The notes beneath the pieces are model-generated. The model did no database searches and had not been told where the DNA came from. It saw only the letters and a list, made by a program, of their open reading frames with translations. Position numbers and translations under genes: made by a program. From IMG/VR virus record IMGVR_UViG_3300025310_000225, positions 1 through 25,417 of that record: a stretch of DNA of 25,417 nt; one strand, given 5' to 3'. How positions within the stretch are numbered: the first letter of the stretch is position 1; each line of letters opens with the position of its first letter. Of this stretch, positions 2,176 to 10,789 are shown one piece after another. Source of the stretch: a virus.

Positions 2176-2546
2176 TGTTTGATCGGGAAACGGCTCGCCG
2201 TATGGTGTGGGACACGGTCTGTATGTTGTCGTCGTCGTATCCTGATGGGGCGCTGGAGTGGCTGCGGGCGAATAGGCCCGATGTCATTCGCTATGCCCAT
2301 GAGGCGGAGGCGGCTCTGGATGCGGCGGTAGAGGCTGAGGATGTTCATGGTCTGGCGCTGGCTCTGGAGCGGTATGTAAAGGTTTTCCAACGGGCATTCC
2401 AGGTTTTTGAGGGGCGCCCGCCGGTGATAGAGGTGCAGGCTTTCCCCTCTGCTGGCGTGGCAGAGGGGAAAGCCGTTCTCCGGTCCGCCTCCCCCCTCCC
2501 CCCCGACGATAGAATCCGGCCAATCGTCCAGAATGGGGTTGCGTGA
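2175..2546 (+). CDS. Hypothetical acidic helical protein, 123 aa
   Basis: The ATG at 2175 overlaps the previous stop, with GGGAGGGCGG upstream. A GTG at 2172 is an alternative. Residues 1-80 are helical and acidic with Trp and Tyr residues. The C-terminal 40 residues are low in structure, rich in Pro, Ala and Ser, and are encoded across a perfect 15-bp inverted repeat (2438-2474). The reading frame may have been extended by insertion of that palindrome. No family is recognised. The gene ends in TGATG overlap with the gpZ-like gene. Confidence 0.6.
   Translation: MFDRETARRMVWDTVCMLSSSYPDGALEWLRANRPDVIRYAHEAEAALDAAVEAEDVHGLALALERYVKVFQRAFQVFEGRPPVIEVQAFPSAGVAEGKAVLRSASPLPPDDRIRPIVQNGVA
2438..2474. 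repeat. Perfect 15-bp inverted repeat inside a gene
   Basis: GGCTTTCCCCTCTGC at 2438-2452 and GCAGAGGGGAAAGCC at 2460-2474 are exact reverse complements around a 7-base loop. The transcript would form a very stable hairpin within the 3' end of the 2175-2546 gene. No T-tract follows, so it is not a simple terminator. Confidence 0.8.
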
Positions 2547-3145
2547 TGCGATTCGTATTGCAGGGATTTGAAGATGCGCTCAATGCGGCCACCGAGGAGA
2601 CCATCAAGGACGTGCGGGCAGCGATCAAGAGCACCATGACCAAGGTGTTGAGGTCGGTAAAGAGCCTCACGTCGGAGGAGATCCGCAAGGTTTACAACGT
2701 GCCGAAATCGGTGCTCGACCAGCGCCTTGAATTATTCACGGCCCGGATCAATAACCTGGAGTCTGTGCTGGTGGTCGGCGGCAAGTCGGTATCGCTCTCG
2801 TATTTCAACGCTCGGCAGTTTCGTGGGGCCAGCGTCATCACCAGGGCCAAGGTGACCACCAGGAAGCGCGCCGGCAAGTTCCAGGGCGTGGAAGTGGAAG
2901 TCATCAAGGGGGAGCGCACGCGGTTAAAGAGCGCGTTTATGCAGCGCTTCGCGAGTGGCCACCTCGGTATCCTCACCCGTACCAGCACGAGCCGTTACCC
3001 CGTCCTGATCAAGAGCGCCGTCTCTGTAGCGTCCATGTTCAACCGAGTGGATATCAACGACGCCATCGTCCGCAAGATCGACGAGGACCTGGAGCGGGTG
3101 TTCCGGCACGAGCTGGAGTTCTACCTCAATCGGGGTGCGCGTTGA
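2546..3145 (+). CDS. Minor tail protein Z-like (lambda gpZ family), 199 aa
   Basis: The pattern fits the Minor_tail_Z family: an N-terminal helical segment with many Thr/Lys/Arg, the 'Tyr-Asn-Val-Pro-Lys-x-x-Leu' region, a central Ser-Leu-Ser-Tyr-Phe segment, then Gly-His-Leu-Gly-Ile ... Arg-Tyr-Pro-Val-Leu and a Val-Ala-Ser-Met-Phe motif near residue 165. Lambda gpZ acts in the tail tube, at the end joined to the head, and is needed for DNA entry. The length (199) is close to the family norm (about 190). The ATG at 2546 overlaps the previous stop. The gene is misplaced: it follows the early genes and precedes replication genes, about 14 kb from the tail module. Base composition changes here from the G-rich early genes to a balanced one. 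Confidence 0.75.
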   Translation: MRFVLQGFEDALNAATEETIKDVRAAIKSTMTKVLRSVKSLTSEEIRKVYNVPKSVLDQRLELFTARINNLESVLVVGGKSVSLSYFNARQFRGASVITRAKVTTRKRAGKFQGVEVEVIKGERTRLKSAFMQRFASGHLGILTRTSTSRYPVLIKSAVSVASMFNRVDINDAIVRKIDEDLERVFRHELEFYLNRGAR

Positions 3146-3268: not shown

Positions 3269-3664
3269 ATGTCGCAACTTCAACCGCTTACATCCGAGGC
3301 GGTAGCCGCTGCATTCTGCGCTGACTCCCTATCGTGGCATCACGTCGGGCGGTGGATCATTGACCGGCTGAACCCCGGCGGTCCGAAGTGTCCGAAATGC
3401 GGCACCGGCTACAACGACGAGACGCGGCTGGAGCGCTGGTATCAGCGCGAGCGCATCCGTTGCACATCGTGCGGTCACATGCACACGTCCACATCCGGCA
3501 CTATCCTGGCCAACACCACGCTGGAGCCCCGGGAGCTCTTTATCCTGCTGCTCACCAGGGAGCGGTTCACCGTTGCCGAGCGGGCCAAGATGCTCGGCAT
3601 GAACCCTAAGACGGTCCGGACATGGGACGCCAAGCTAACGGACGGGGGTTGCCCCAATGTCTGA
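3269..3664 (+). CDS. Zinc-ribbon plus helix-turn-helix regulator, transposase-type DNA-binding domain, 131 aa
   Basis: Cys41-x2-Cys44 and Cys65-x2-Cys68 form a zinc ribbon. The following Thr-Ser-Gly-Thr-Ile-Leu ... Leu-Glu-Pro-Arg-Glu-Leu segment and an HTH at about 98-123 reproduce the N-terminal layout of IS1595-type transposases, but the protein stops before any DDE/DDN catalytic domain. It is therefore probably a DNA-binding regulator rather than a transposase. The start at 3269 has AGGAGGGC upstream. The stop overlaps the helicase start by 8 bases, tying it to the replication block. A role in controlling replication genes or in origin binding is inference. Confidence 0.65.
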   Translation: MSQLQPLTSEAVAAAFCADSLSWHHVGRWIIDRLNPGGPKCPKCGTGYNDETRLERWYQRERIRCTSCGHMHTSTSGTILANTTLEPRELFILLLTRERFTVAERAKMLGMNPKTVRTWDAKLTDGGCPNV

Positions 3665-5261
3665 TCCCCTGGACGACAAGATCGTAGATATCAGGGCGGC
3701 GGTAGAGGCGCGGAAGAAGGCGGAAGAGGCTTTGCTCGCCGAGAAGGCGAAGCCGGAGACGCCAGTCATAACCCCGCGGCTCGTCAAGCAGTGCCTGCTA
3801 GCCAACGAGCTTGGCGACGGCACTCTCTATGCGGCCCTTCATCGGGGGAAATTCCTCTTCAACAAAACCACGGGACAGTGGCTCATGTGGCAAGGGCACC
3901 ATTGGGCCGTGGACGTCATGGAGCAGGCCTTTGCCGGGGTGGAGGACGTGGCGCTCCAGTATCTGGAAGCCGGCCACCTCTTGAAGGATGACATTGACAC
4001 TGCCCGGACTGCCGATAAATACGATGAAGCCAAGCAGCTTTCCGAGCTCCAGGCCAGCTATTACAAGCGGGTCAAGAAGCTGCGCTCCATCGCCGGTGCC
4101 GGGAATTGCCTGCTGTATAGCCATCGTGTGAAAGACCCCTTGGCCATCAAGGGAGACGAGATCGACACCAACCCGTGGCTGCTGGCGTGCCGCAACGGCG
4201 TCGTAGATCTGCGTACCGGAAAGATGCGTCCAGGACGGCCCGAGGACTACCTCCTCAGGGCCGTGCCCCACGAATGGAGGGGGATTGACTGCCCGGCGCC
4301 AGTATGGGATGCCGCCCTGCGCGATATTTTCGAGGGGCCTCATGCTGACGAGATCATCGCATTTTTGCGTCGCGCCGCCGGCTACAGCATCACCGGACTC
4401 AACATCGAGCGCCTGTTCTTGTTGCTCTACGGCGAACACGGCCAGAACGGCAAGGGGACCATCGTGGAAACCCTACAGTACATCCTTGGCCCCTTGGCCG
4501 CTCCCGTCGCCTCCGAGATGCTCCTCGACCAGGGGCGGACGAAATCCAGTTCCGGTCCCACCCCTGACATCATGGCCCTCAAGGGGCTGCGGATCGCCTT
4601 TGCCTCCGAGACCAATGAGGGGGAGCGCTTCTCCACCTCCAAGGTCAAATGGTTCACCGGCGGCGACACCCTCACCGGCCGCAACCCGCACGACAAACAC
4701 CCCACGTCCTTCACCCCCTCGCACGTCCTGTGGCTCCTCACCAACTACCTCCCCCGGGCCTCTGCCGACGACCGGCCGTTCTGGACCCGAATGAAGGTCG
4801 TCAATTTCAACTGGTCGTTCGTCGAAGAGCCACGGGAACCCTACGAGAAAAAGCGCGACGGTGATCTGCTGCGCAAACTATCCGCCGAAGCCTCCGGCAT
4901 CCTCGCCTGGCTGGTGCGGGGCTGTCTTGAATGGCAGCGGGACGGGCTCTCCCCGCCGGCCATAGTCAAGCAGTACACTTCCGACTACCAGCGCAATGAA
5001 GACAATGTCGGGCAATTCATCGACGAATGCTGCGTCATTGATGACCGCGACGAGATCCCAGTCAAGAGCCGTGACGCCGCTGGGGCCACCGCCCTCTATA
5101 AGGCCTTCAGGGCCTGGTACGAGAACAACATCGGCAACAAGCCCGTCAGCCAGAAGAAATTCGGCGACATCATGGGTAAAAAGGGCTTTCTCAAGGACAA
5201 GGACAACTTCGGCCTGATCCAGTATTTCGGCATCAGGCTCAAGAGCCAGTACGAGACATGA
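3657..5261 (+). CDS. P4-family SF3 DNA helicase (D5/primase C-terminal type), 534 aa
   Basis: The order of motifs is that of phage/plasmid P4-alpha-type superfamily 3 helicases: an N-terminal D5_N-like region (about 90-245), Walker A Gly-x2-Gly-x2-Gly-Lys-Gly-Thr at 259-268, Walker B ending Phe-Ala-Ser-Glu (Glu318), and motif C with sensor Asn363 in Leu-Leu-Thr-Asn-Tyr. A C-terminal winged-helix-like region (about 430-530) probably binds DNA. It would unwind phage DNA at the origin. It lacks the N-terminal primase domain found in P4 alpha; that activity is supplied by the separate gene at 5696. It is translationally coupled to the zinc-ribbon gene and is followed by the iteron region. Confidence 0.88.
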   Translation: MSDPLDDKIVDIRAAVEARKKAEEALLAEKAKPETPVITPRLVKQCLLANELGDGTLYAALHRGKFLFNKTTGQWLMWQGHHWAVDVMEQAFAGVEDVALQYLEAGHLLKDDIDTARTADKYDEAKQLSELQASYYKRVKKLRSIAGAGNCLLYSHRVKDPLAIKGDEIDTNPWLLACRNGVVDLRTGKMRPGRPEDYLLRAVPHEWRGIDCPAPVWDAALRDIFEGPHADEIIAFLRRAAGYSITGLNIERLFLLLYGEHGQNGKGTIVETLQYILGPLAAPVASEMLLDQGRTKSSSGPTPDIMALKGLRIAFASETNEGERFSTSKVKWFTGGDTLTGRNPHDKHPTSFTPSHVLWLLTNYLPRASADDRPFWTRMKVVNFNWSFVEEPREPYEKKRDGDLLRKLSAEASGILAWLVRGCLEWQRDGLSPPAIVKQYTSDYQRNEDNVGQFIDECCVIDDRDEIPVKSRDAAGATALYKAFRAWYENNIGNKPVSQKKFGDIMGKKGFLKDKDNFGLIQYFGIRLKSQYET

Positions 5262-5695
5262 GCGGAAGATCATCTGGCCGGGTTTCCCCTGTAGGGGGGC
5301 GGGGCCGGTTCACATATCCATATCGAGCAGGCGGGCGGAGGATTGATGGGACGAGGGGGCGATGTTCCGGAATCATTATCCGGGCATAACATACCGAAAT
5401 AGCGCCGCAAAAAGTTGTATCCGGAGGATTGGAGGATTACCGCAGACAATTTTTTACAGGAATACTGCAACCAATTGCCTGAAGAAGATACTTACTTATA
5501 TCCTCCAATCCTCCGGAGTCACGTAAAAAAAAGAATATATATAATAAGTTGCGGCGCGGAGGATTAACGAGAAAACGTTTTTCTCATCCTCCGATCCTCC
5601 GGGGGATTTACTCCCTTGGCAGGGGTGATCATAGATAACGGGCCAAGCGCACCGGCTTGCGGAGCGCAGTCCGCAGCCGCCGCAGGGAAATAACC
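5262..5695. other. Candidate replication origin: iteron-rich non-coding region
   Basis: This 434-bp gap contains no credible gene. It carries eight copies of GGAGGAT or its complement: + at 5337, 5423, 5431 and 5558; - at 5500, 5508, 5586 and 5594 (first base of each). Three are doublets spaced exactly 8 bp. TCCGGAGGATTGGAGGAT (5420-5437) and its exact complement (5500-5517) make an 18-bp inverted repeat. A second stem pairs 5557-5564 with 5586-5593, with inner arms GAGAAAA/TTTTCTC. An A/T-rich stretch (about 5521-5549) lies between them. Iterons plus AT-rich DNA between a P4-type helicase and a primase gene is the layout expected of a phage origin. The role is inferred. Confidence 0.6.
5420..5517. 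repeat. 18-bp perfect inverted repeat built from iteron doublets
   Basis: The left arm at 5420-5437 and right arm at 5500-5517 are exact reverse complements, separated by 62 bases. Each arm is two tandem GGAGGAT units 8 bp apart. Confidence 0.85.
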
Positions 5696-7084
5696 ATGAA
5701 CCTCCTCGACATCGCCTCTACATCCGGCCGCCAGTACAAGCGGGTCTCCTCCGTCAAGGGGGGCGAGTACCATGGCCCGTGTCCGGGGTGCGGCGGCACC
5801 GACCGCTTCCATATCTGGCCCGGACAGGGGGACTGCGGCTCCTGGTGGTGCCGCAAGTGCGGCAAGGGGGGAGACGCCATCCAGTACCTCATCGACTTTG
5901 AGGGAATGAGCTTCCCCGATGCCTGCAAGGCCCTGGGCCGGGAGCTCCCCGAGCAGCAGGAGGGGCGGACCCCGCGGGTCCGCACACCCGCCCCCGACTC
6001 CTGGCGGCCCCGCGAAACAGCCCCTCCCCCCGATCCCTGGCGGACGCAGGCCGAAAAACTCGTTGCCTGGGCTCACCAGCGTCTCCTGGAGAGCCCCGAA
6101 CAGCTCGCCTGGTGCGCCGCCCGGGGGCTTGATCTCGCGGCCGTCAAAAAATACCGCCTCGGCTGGAACCCCGGCGAAAAGGGCAAAGACCTCTACCGTG
6201 CCCGCGAAGCCTGGGGGCTCGACACCGTCCTCAAGGCGGACGGCACGGCCAAAAAGCTCTGGCTCCCCATCGGCCTCGTCATCCCCTGTTATCGGGACCA
6301 GGGGCCGGGGACCGAAGACCGGGAATTGCACCGGGTGCGCATCCGGCGCCCCGAGGGAGACCCCCGCTACTACCTCGTCCCCGGCTCCGGCACTGGCCCC
6401 ATGGTTTTGGGCACCGCCGCGCGGGCTTACGTCGTGGTGGAGTCCGAGTTAGATGCCATCCTCATACACCACCTGGCCGGCGACATCGTTGGGGCCGTCT
6501 CCCAGGGCAACAGCACCGCCAAGCCCGACGGCGCCGCCCACGCCCGACTCGGTGAGGCCCTCGCCATACTCGTCGCCCTCGACAGTGATGATGCCGGGGC
6601 CGCTGCCGCCGTCTGGTGGCAGCGGCACTACCCCCAGGCCGATCGCTGGCCCGTCCCCGTCGGCAAGGATCCCGGCGACGCCTTCCGGGCCGGGTGCGAC
6701 ATCCGACAGTGGGTAGCCGCCGGACTCCCCCCGGCCCTGACCCTTCCGTCATCGCGCGGGCCGGAGCGCTCCCCCCCCGTGCCGGTAGAGGCCCCGGCGG
6801 CGCCCCCGGAATCGGTGGTCCATATTATCCGGGCACAGGACGGCCGGGTAGTCCACATAACCGATGATCCCGCCGCTTATGCCCGCCTGGCGAGAGATGG
6901 GGCCATTGTCCTGGACAGCCGGGAGGTGGCCGTTGTCAAGCGCTCCGGCGCCACACCCGAAGACGCCGCCAGATTTCTGGACGTGAAGGAGATCTTCCCT
7001 GGCGCGCGCATCGACGACATCGGTCCCGCAGCCCCGACGCCCGAGCCGAGAAAGCCCGGCACCTGCTACTGGAGGAGCAAATGA
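5696..7084 (+). CDS. DNA primase, CHC2 zinc finger plus TOPRIM domain, 462 aa
   Basis: The zinc-finger cysteines are Cys29-x2-Cys32 and Cys52-x2-Cys55, in a Gly-rich context typical of phage CHC2/P4-type primases. The TOPRIM centre has Glu249 (in Val-Val-Val-Glu-Ser-Glu) and Asp296-Ser-Asp298-Asp299, the metal-binding acidic residues, and a Gly-Lys-Asp-Pro-Gly-Asp segment follows near residue 322. A Pro/Ala-rich linker (about 345-375) leads to a C-terminal tail of unknown role. It would make RNA primers for the adjacent helicase. The ATG at 5696 is preferred because AGGGA lies 8 bases upstream; a longer start would enter the iteron region. It overlaps the next gene as ATGA. Confidence 0.88.
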   Translation: MNLLDIASTSGRQYKRVSSVKGGEYHGPCPGCGGTDRFHIWPGQGDCGSWWCRKCGKGGDAIQYLIDFEGMSFPDACKALGRELPEQQEGRTPRVRTPAPDSWRPRETAPPPDPWRTQAEKLVAWAHQRLLESPEQLAWCAARGLDLAAVKKYRLGWNPGEKGKDLYRAREAWGLDTVLKADGTAKKLWLPIGLVIPCYRDQGPGTEDRELHRVRIRRPEGDPRYYLVPGSGTGPMVLGTAARAYVVVESELDAILIHHLAGDIVGAVSQGNSTAKPDGAAHARLGEALAILVALDSDDAGAAAAVWWQRHYPQADRWPVPVGKDPGDAFRAGCDIRQWVAAGLPPALTLPSSRGPERSPPVPVEAPAAPPESVVHIIRAQDGRVVHITDDPAAYARLARDGAIVLDSREVAVVKRSGATPEDAARFLDVKEIFPGARIDDIGPAAPTPEPRKPGTCYWRSK

Positions 7085-7428
7085 GCGAAACAGGCACCAA
7101 ACACGACACCGGCAAATTGGACTGGTCCGCCATTCCCCTGGAGGTCCTGGAACCCCTGGTGGCGGTCTTTGTCGCCGGGGAGCGCAAATATGGTTACCGC
7201 AACTGTCTGAAGCCCTTCGACAACGGCAGCCGGCGTTTCTTCGCCGCCGCCATGCGCCACGCCGTCAAGGCGCAGGCCGATCCCCTGTCCGTCGATGAGG
7301 AAACCGGCTGTTACGAAGAGGCCGAGGCGGCCTGGAACCACCTGATGAGACTGCACCACGCGCGCATGTCGCACGCCGCGAGCGCGGCGGACAGAGAGAG
7401 CGTGCGGATGCGCGGGGAAACGGGATAA
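7081..7428 (+). CDS. dATP/dGTP diphosphohydrolase-like protein (DUF5664 type), 115 aa
   Basis: The opening Lys-His-Asp-Thr-Gly-Lys-Leu-Asp-Trp, the Gly-Glu-Arg-Lys-Tyr-Gly-Tyr-Arg-Asn segment (about residues 33-41), a Phe-Phe-Ala-Ala-Ala-Met-Arg-His helix and a terminal Glu-Ala-x-x-Ala-Trp-Asn-His-Leu helix match the domain annotated as the N-terminal dATP/dGTP diphosphohydrolase, an all-alpha NTP pyrophosphohydrolase relative. Such enzymes trim purine dNTP pools in phage-infected cells, and a relative (MazZ) serves 2-aminoadenine DNA phages. No PurZ-like gene is seen here. It starts by ATGA overlap with the primase gene and so belongs to the replication operon. Confidence 0.7.
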   Translation: MSETGTKHDTGKLDWSAIPLEVLEPLVAVFVAGERKYGYRNCLKPFDNGSRRFFAAAMRHAVKAQADPLSVDEETGCYEEAEAAWNHLMRLHHARMSHAASAADRESVRMRGETG

Positions 7429-10147: not shown

Positions 10148-10177
10148 AGAAAAGGCGGGGGTACCCGCCTTTTCTTT
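10146..10177. terminator. Bidirectional intrinsic terminator
   Basis: AAAGAAAAGGCGGG (10146-10159) pairs perfectly with CCCGCCTTTTCTTT (10164-10177) around loop GGTA. Each strand ends in a U-rich tail. It lies exactly between the convergent HTH gene and hicB and overlaps both stop codons. Confidence 0.9.
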
Positions 10178-10601
10178 ACTCGAGGGAGAGGATCAGCCGC
10201 TTTCCCAGTACCGCCGCCGCCCGCTCAAGCTGCCGCAGGCTTGGCCAGTGGTGTGGGTTCTCCAGCCGGGCCACTGCCGGCCATGATGTGCCGAGCGCCC
10301 GTGCCAGGTCGGCCAGGCTTCGGTGCTGCTCCTCCCTGGCCAGGTGCACCAGCATGGCGCTCTGGATCGCGGCGCTCGGCGCGGCGTAGCGGATGTTCTC
10401 CCCGCCGGTCGCCGATGGCGCGGGGAGCTCCTGCCCCTTGCCGAGGCGGTATCCGATGATGCCCGAAAGCACCTCGGCCGCATTGAACGCCGCCTCCTCC
10501 GGGGTAGCCCCTTCAGTGAACGCCTCCTCGAAATCGACGAACTGCACGAAATAGCCGCCGCCTTCCTGGGGCTCCATGGTGTACGGATATTCTATTTTCA
10601 T
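10176..10601 (-). CDS. hicB: HicB-type antitoxin with helix-turn-helix, 141 aa
   Basis: Residues 1-60 form the HicB partial RNase H-like fold (an acidic Tyr-Phe-Val-Gln-Phe-Val-Asp-Phe strand, then an Ala-Thr-Pro-Glu-Glu-Ala helix). Residues about 85-135 contain an XRE-type HTH (Leu-Ala-Asp-Leu-Ala-Arg-Ala-Leu ... Trp-Pro-Ala-Val-Ala-Arg-Leu) for autorepression. It would neutralise the HicA mRNA-cleaving toxin and repress the operon. The ATG at 10601 overlaps the hicA stop as ATGA, fixing the start and showing toxin-first order. The gene runs against the phage late genes and ends in the shared terminator. Confidence 0.88.
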   Translation of the reverse strand: MKIEYPYTMEPQEGGGYFVQFVDFEEAFTEGATPEEAAFNAAEVLSGIIGYRLGKGQELPAPSATGGENIRYAAPSAAIQSAMLVHLAREEQHRSLADLARALGTSWPAVARLENPHHWPSLRQLERAAAVLGKRLILSLE

Positions 10602-10789
10602 TTCAGCTTCACTCCAGTCTGCCGCTCTATCGCCTTCATGAGGCCGATTCCCACGTCCTTCGTCCCGTGCACCGGCACCGGCACGCACCGGGGCGTCCCC
10701 TCCTTCTCCATGATGTGGTGGCTCCCCTCGACCCGGGCCAGCCGCCACCCCTCCCGCTCCAACCGCTTGATGATCTCCTTGCCGTTCAT
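10598..10789 (-). CDS. hicA: HicA-type mRNA interferase toxin, 63 aa
   Basis: The compact size, an N-terminal Gly-Lys-Glu-Ile-Ile-Lys-Arg-Leu helix, Gly22-Ser23-His24-His25 with the expected catalytic His, and a Val-Pro-Val-His-Gly strand followed by an Ile-Gly-x-x-x-Lys-x-Ile helix are all characteristic of HicA. It has a double-stranded RNA-binding-like fold and cleaves mRNA to block translation. It forms an operon with hicB, which it overlaps by 4 bases. In a prophage such a pair acts as a maintenance or phage-exclusion cargo. No clear SD is visible, consistent with low expression of the toxin. Confidence 0.9.
   Translation of the reverse strand: MNGKEIIKRLEREGWRLARVEGSHHIMEKEGTPRCVPVPVHGTKDVGIGLMKAIERQTGVKLK

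Follow-up and report, generated by a model that had tools for sequence, protein, structure and literature searches.

A probable replication origin of facing iteron doublets between the helicase and primase genes of a tailed phage, with conserved geometry and a drifting unit

The non-coding gap between the helicase and primase genes of a tailed phage is packed with copies of the heptamer GGAGGAT, which raises the question of what these repeats do. The phage is known from IMG/VR record IMGVR_UViG_3300025310_000225, the whole of which (25,417 nucleotides, hereafter 'the window') was analysed; it is a tailed-phage contig with lambda-type portal, capsid, and GpA terminase genes. The original prediction, made from the letters of the window, read the array as a candidate replication origin built of iterons. 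The density of the unit and the conservation of the doublet spacing among relatives support that reading, and we put at roughly 0.85 the probability that the array (positions 5337–5600) is the replication origin (ori) of the phage, judging from sequence comparison.

The gap (5262–5695) lies between two separate plus-strand genes, as had been proposed. Upstream is the gene of a D5/SF3-type (P4-type) helicase (3657–5261; PF08706 D5_N, 5.7e-25; PHROG DNA primase/helicase families down to 3e-90), the proposed initiator, and downstream is the gene of a zinc-ribbon/TOPRIM-like primase (5696–7084; PF08273, 6e-8; phrog_849 DNA primase, 2.7e-29), which is syntenic in relatives. The start of the helicase gene is overlapped by a plus-strand open reading frame for a zinc-ribbon protein of 131 aa (3269–3664), for which Pfam gave no match. 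Directly after the primase gene, a small protein (7081–7428) matches the N-terminal domain of dATP/dGTP diphosphohydrolase (PF18909, 1e-15). A tail-completion/minor tail Z-like gene (2543–3145; PF06763, phrog_27) adjoins the replication genes upstream, apart from the tail genes, and is likewise found upstream of the replication genes in the relatives L032, L033, L034, L056, and L071 and in an element of Syntrophotalea acetylenica described below. Two minus-strand open reading frames (10176–10789) stand within the plus-strand structural module; one (10598–10789) looks HicA-type and its companion looks HicB-type with a C-terminal helix-turn-helix (Pfam HTH_3, 2.4e-6), these names being given by sequence resemblance, without a family match.

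GGAGGAT occurs 14 times in the window, a count never reached in shuffles of the window (mean 5.1, maximum 12). Eight of these copies fall in 5337–5600, exactly 264 bp, at 5337+, 5423+, 5431+, 5500-, 5508-, 5558+, 5586-, and 5594-; the remaining six are singles. Counted within the window only, the enrichment in the gap amounts to eight copies seen versus 0.10 expected from the density elsewhere (Poisson P ~3e-13). Three doublets have an exact 8-bp spacing (5423/5431, 5500/5508, and 5586/5594). The forward doublet (5423–5437, plus strand; GGAGGATtGGAGGAT), recovered by unit count, inverted-repeat search, and geometry scan, is separated by a spacer of 62 bp (5438–5499; 65% AT) from the reverse doublet that faces it (5500–5514, minus strand), and the two are partners in a perfect 18-bp inverted repeat (5420–5437/5500–5517), the right arm of which has a near-copy (94%) at 5586–5602. 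The third doublet, also reverse (5586–5600, minus strand), lies 148 bp from the forward doublet and is opposed by a single plus-strand iteron (5558–5564); another single plus-strand iteron lies at 5337–5343, and both singles are exact copies of the unit. An A-rich tract at 5521–5549, a candidate unwinding element, is 86% AT and is the AT-richest 29-mer of a contig with 62% GC; the AT-richest 180-bp stretch of the contig begins at 5371. The eight copies within 264 bp, the three doublets, the inverted repeat built from them, and the AT-rich stretch had all been described in the original prediction, and each was recovered on recounting. A search of IMG/VR for the exact doublet (CCGGAGGATNGGAGGAT) returned seven loci, none of them with a comparable array.

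Relatives were sought through the helicase. As a single-sequence query against viral and genome collections, it gave no matches; a two-sequence alignment of the C-terminal halves of the window helicase and the helicase of the circular S. acetylenica element brought up 80 IMG/VR loci and a further 41 in GTDB genomes, of which the nearest are from Desulfobacterota (Desulfovibrio, Desulfobacterales, and Desulfuromonadales). The order of helicase, non-coding gap, and primase is kept in 80 loci, or 67 once near-copies are removed, and these 67 non-redundant relatives are mostly phages and prophages of Desulfobacterota. A 7-mer is repeated beyond Markov shuffles (p ~0.01 or less) in 30 of the 67 gaps, and the same count was found in 18 of 2,201 same-length control windows elsewhere in those loci. 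Some 24–29 of the 67 gaps are without a significant array, perhaps owing to degenerate units or short gaps in some of them. Among the papers searched, none on iterons of Desulfovibrio prophages was found. The S. acetylenica element (L015; NZ_CP015456, strain DSM 3246, 13.7 kb, circular) is annotated as a plasmid, yet its phage-like genes are syntenic with those of the window; tail-Z-like, zinc-ribbon, and helicase genes are present, with the helicase reading frame split into several pieces, and neither iterons nor a primase match was found in it.

The repeated unit differs among these loci. The window shares GGAGGAT with L028–L030, L052–L054, L101, L111, and L113, and the other units are GGACGAT (L020, L027, L032, L100, and L022), GGACCAT (L040, L042, L051, and L099), GGACAAT/GGACAGT (L026, L061, L107, and L110), GGAGGGT (L056, L059, and L116), GTAGGGT (L055 and L080), and GGATGAT (L043 and L103). 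Tabulated by base frequency, 167 doublet units give the consensus GGA[C/G]N[A/G]T, in which the first three bases and the last are nearly fixed; because it was seeded with the own unit of each locus, this tabulation describes the units and is no test of them. On the helicase tree, the iteron types are clustered, requiring 18 changes versus a shuffled mean of 22.4, a value as low being reached in none of 200 shuffles. The GGAGGAT of the window is nested in a GGAC clade, and therefore the unit has switched more than once. That the GGAGGAT iteron was not recognized by the earlier reader fits a unit sequence that varies from phage to phage.

The arrangement of the units was then scored with the unit sequence left unspecified: the geometry scan looked for two doublets facing each other, the forward one first, with four units agreeing and a spacer of 54–66 bp. 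Of the 67 gaps, 35 show this geometry significantly (p<0.01), the observed score being reached by 24 of 2,986 control windows, and the window itself scores 28/28, the maximum. Because the first scan admitted spacers of 54–66 bp only, it was rerun over 0–160 bp; the mean excess peaks at 59, 58, and 60 bp, and a second cluster lies at ~146–153 bp. The corresponding spacers of the window are 62 bp (facing doublet) and 148 bp (third doublet), and L020, L021, L029, L032, L061, and L101 likewise have a reverse doublet ~146–153 bp away among their best-scoring spacings. Same-strand neighbours in relatives mostly stand at a distance of 8 bp (34 cases) or 9 bp (24 cases), less often of 10–11 bp, and an A-rich tract follows the second doublet at many loci, placed as in the window. 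The facing-doublet geometry is retained even in L127, despite a unit of AACAGAA and a helicase identity of 37%. Among the points on which the original prediction had staked itself were the rarity of the unit elsewhere and the conservation of doublet spacing in relatives, and the data speak for it on both: GGAGGAT is not equally dense elsewhere, given its concentration in the gap, its 14 copies versus a shuffle mean of 5.1 and, in relatives, a density of own-unit doublets of 5.34 per kb in gaps versus 0.026 per kb outside, and the spacing is conserved, with a same-strand peak at 8–9 bp and a facing-doublet optimum at 58–60 bp. The array, its conserved position and geometry, the drift of its unit, and the synteny around it are established by sequence; across dozens of relatives, the geometry of the putative origin is kept while its presumed recognition sequence drifts.

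Arrays of this kind are also found beside other D5-type genes. Iterons lie directly downstream of such genes in Acidithiobacillus phage AcaML1, mycobacteriophage LilPharaoh, Lactobacillus phage CL2, and Aurantimonas phage AmM-1, and weaker arrays lie downstream of them in Bacillus phage A9Y, Lactobacillus phage JNU_P5, and a Bacillus plasmid; a significant downstream 7-mer array was not found in BaileyBlu, Shambre1, the Thermaerobacter and Planctomyces plasmids, pGEOTH02, Wildwest, Shawty, and Javan3. In LilPharaoh (L141), at least eight copies of AGCACAG in direct and inverted pairs occupy 4375–4807, directly downstream of the primase/helicase gene, and appear to form an origin of a similar general kind. 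The arrays downstream of the helicase genes of two distant phages, L067 and AmM-1 (L152), have the unit GGGAGGC in common.

The upstream helicase quite probably binds the iterons, to judge from its predicted structure and from analogous systems. Its AlphaFold model has a pLDDT of 93, and its profile matches D5-family structures, among them the 'DNA primase' 7ola (1.4e-14), which we take to be a SaPI5 protein, and ASFV C962R. A separate model of the last 105 residues is a winged helix, and this predicted C-terminal domain (approximately residues 449–534, encoded at 5001–5258, plus strand) is the proposed iteron-binding domain. Both this fold and its likeness to the origin-binding domain of P4 are predictions: the model aligns with 1KA8 at Z 8.1 (78 residues, 3.0 A, 23% identity), with the RFX DNA-binding domain at Z 9.0, and with the ASFV primase-helicase C962R at Z 9.2. 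As common folds also reach Z near 8, the winged-helix match is support rather than proof; the sequence-level kinship to D5-family helicases stands independently of it. When divergence of the iterons was compared with that of the helicase in sliding windows (partial Mantel test), only residues 171–200 (p 0.03) and 291–320 (p 0.047) passed the corrected threshold, and the C-terminal domain was not singled out; the assignment of the helicase C-terminus as the binder of the units therefore rests on fold and precedent. The original prediction had named the zinc-ribbon protein (3269–3664) as an alternative binder, which is unlikely in general because, apart from the S. acetylenica element, no more than a few relatives yielded a homologue, though the arrays persist.

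Initiation at the array may then proceed as follows. The helicase encoded directly upstream would bind the GGAGGAT doublets via its C-terminal P4-type winged-helix domain, and the facing doublets, 62 bp apart, would position two helicase rings, as has been proposed for SaPI Rep and SCCmec Cch2. ATP-driven opening would begin in the AT-rich spacer, in the A-rich tract next to it (5521–5549), or in both, and the primase encoded immediately downstream would prime the opened DNA. It is thus the helicase as binder, the site of melting, and the start of replication at the array that we infer. GC skew lends no support: in the window it does not reverse at the gap as it should for a bidirectional origin, the cumulative skew peaking near 3–4 kb, and among 30 relatives the skew is only slightly higher to the right of the gap (18 of 30).

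The repeats could instead constitute an operator region, bound by a phage regulator (the zinc-ribbon or another winged-helix protein) that controls the primase and downstream genes, an explanation that we consider improbable. The array does lie upstream of the primase and packaging genes, drift is also known for repeated operators, and the helicase itself could double as a repressor. However, a scan of 5150–5800 for sigma-70-like promoters and terminators, a weak test, found none; the fixed 59-bp and 148-bp geometry and the AT extreme exceed the needs of an operator; the arrays persist although few loci have a detected zinc-ribbon gene; and distant phages with different downstream genes also carry arrays immediately 3′ of a D5 helicase gene.

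A second explanation takes a fold-back (stem-loop) in DNA or RNA to be the essential feature, as argued for the archaeal plasmid pRN1, and the iterons to be incidental to the stem. The window accords with it in its perfect 18-bp inverted repeat, as do the arms of L102 (the prophage of Desulfovibrio piger ATCC 29098) and L103, which are nearly perfect palindromes as wholes and complementary despite differing half-units, and the pRN1 origin tolerated a mutation in its stem only with symmetry restored (PMC4234260). Against this stand the limits and the grain of the complementarity. Together with direct-repeat identity, it ends within a few bases outside the doublets (the values inside are inflated, since unit agreement was the criterion for choosing the arms), and within an arm it is lowest at the base between two units, with mismatches at the variable unit positions (in arms chosen in the same way). 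Moreover, tandem units without an inverted partner occur (the 3′ cluster of L042 and the 5′ triplet of L116), and an Rfam search gave no match at gathering score. We judge an essential fold-back to be very unlikely. That the repeat is a functionless product of chance or composition, purine-rich and Shine–Dalgarno-like in that GGAGG resembles the ribosome-binding motif, is scarcely credible, being contradicted by the shuffle and within-locus controls and by a constant geometry with changing sequence.

Read as origins, these loci offer a natural series of dozens of phage origins with one geometry and different recognition words, useful for learning how the D5/P4-type winged-helix domain selects DNA and how initiator and origin change together. 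They also suggest a rule for predicting origins in uncultured phages, namely facing doublets ~59 bp apart directly 3′ of a D5/SF3 helicase gene.

Several known systems may be compared with the window. The origin of pRN1, an element that replication of the plasmid requires, is described as a stem of 21 nt with a loop of 58 nt, just 3′ of the replication gene and without iterons, in which stem symmetry mattered (PMC4234260), and the window likewise has an inverted-repeat element of ~100 bp just 3′ of a P4-family/SF3 helicase gene. Computed as arm, spacer, and arm, the dimensions are 21+58+21 in pRN1, 20+57+20 in pRN2, and 18+62+18 in the window. The arms of pRN1 (TTATGTCCATAGTGTCCAACT; spacer 58 bp) and pRN2 (CGGACCGATAGGACAGGAAA; spacer 57 bp) each hold two GGAC/GTCC cores 9 bp apart, and those of pRN1, pRN2, and pHEN7 parse as inverted doublets with 9-bp spacing (scan p 0.007 to 0.013, a resolution set by the 150 shuffles); pDL10 gives a weak doublet signal, and in pSSVx the part covered (1–400) probably still lies within the replication gene. 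Downstream of the primase gene of Bordetella BPP-1, a relative of BIP-1, which has been cited for a pRN1-like stem-loop, the doublet architecture is not significant. The pRN plasmids differ from the window in being archaeal (Sulfolobales), in being described as having a stem-loop, and in that specific protein binding was not detected in vitro. As the pRN1 units are also opposite in orientation and no 7-mer is repeated beyond the arms, common descent is a lead only. Tentatively, and with more doubt than confidence, one architecture might underlie both the iteron origins of phages and satellites and the archaeal pRN stem-loop origins, that is, facing iteron doublets ~58–60 bp apart, 3′ of a P4/SF3-type initiator gene, with the pRN1 stem as an inverted iteron doublet and with sequences drifting while the spacing is held. 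The disputed pRN1 stem-loop thereby gains a testable reinterpretation.

To phage P4 the likeness is one of protein fold and origin type: the predicted C-terminal winged helix of the window helicase shares the fold of the P4 alpha origin-binding domain (1KA8, Z 8.1), and P4 has an iteron origin, as the window would, the P4 iteron presumably differing in sequence from GGAGGAT. P4 alpha fuses primase and helicase (PMC4234260), whereas the window has separate genes (3657–5261 and 5696–7084), and P4 uses two sites (ori and crr), whereas a second array was not found in the window.

SCCmec Cch2 is a separate D5-family helicase of about equal length to that of the window, working with a separate primase, and its C-terminal residues 400–538 bind iterons directly 3′ of its gene (PMC7581432). 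The Cch2 iterons differ in being three direct repeats of AAGTG, with inverted repeats that are dispensable for binding, and priming there is by CCPol-MP. SaPI Rep proteins likewise bind iterons directly 3′ of their own gene via a C-terminal domain (PMC7581432), and in PICI origins, for which plasmid maintenance by pri-rep-ori was tested, two iteron sets flank an AT-rich region 3′ of rep (PMC6092414); the iteron sequences are given per element (PMC6092414 and PMC7581432). The window differs from these satellites in coming from a tailed phage that encodes terminase, portal, and capsid proteins of its own, in having helicase and primase split with the putative ori between them, and in that phages of its type have paired doublets at ~59 and 148 bp with the unit GGANNAT. 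It resembles them in having two iteron sets that flank an AT-rich region directly 3′ of the initiator helicase gene. The layout of the window, with iterons immediately downstream of the gene of a self-loading initiator helicase, appears from its sequence to match that described for SaPI/PICI and SCCmec origins.
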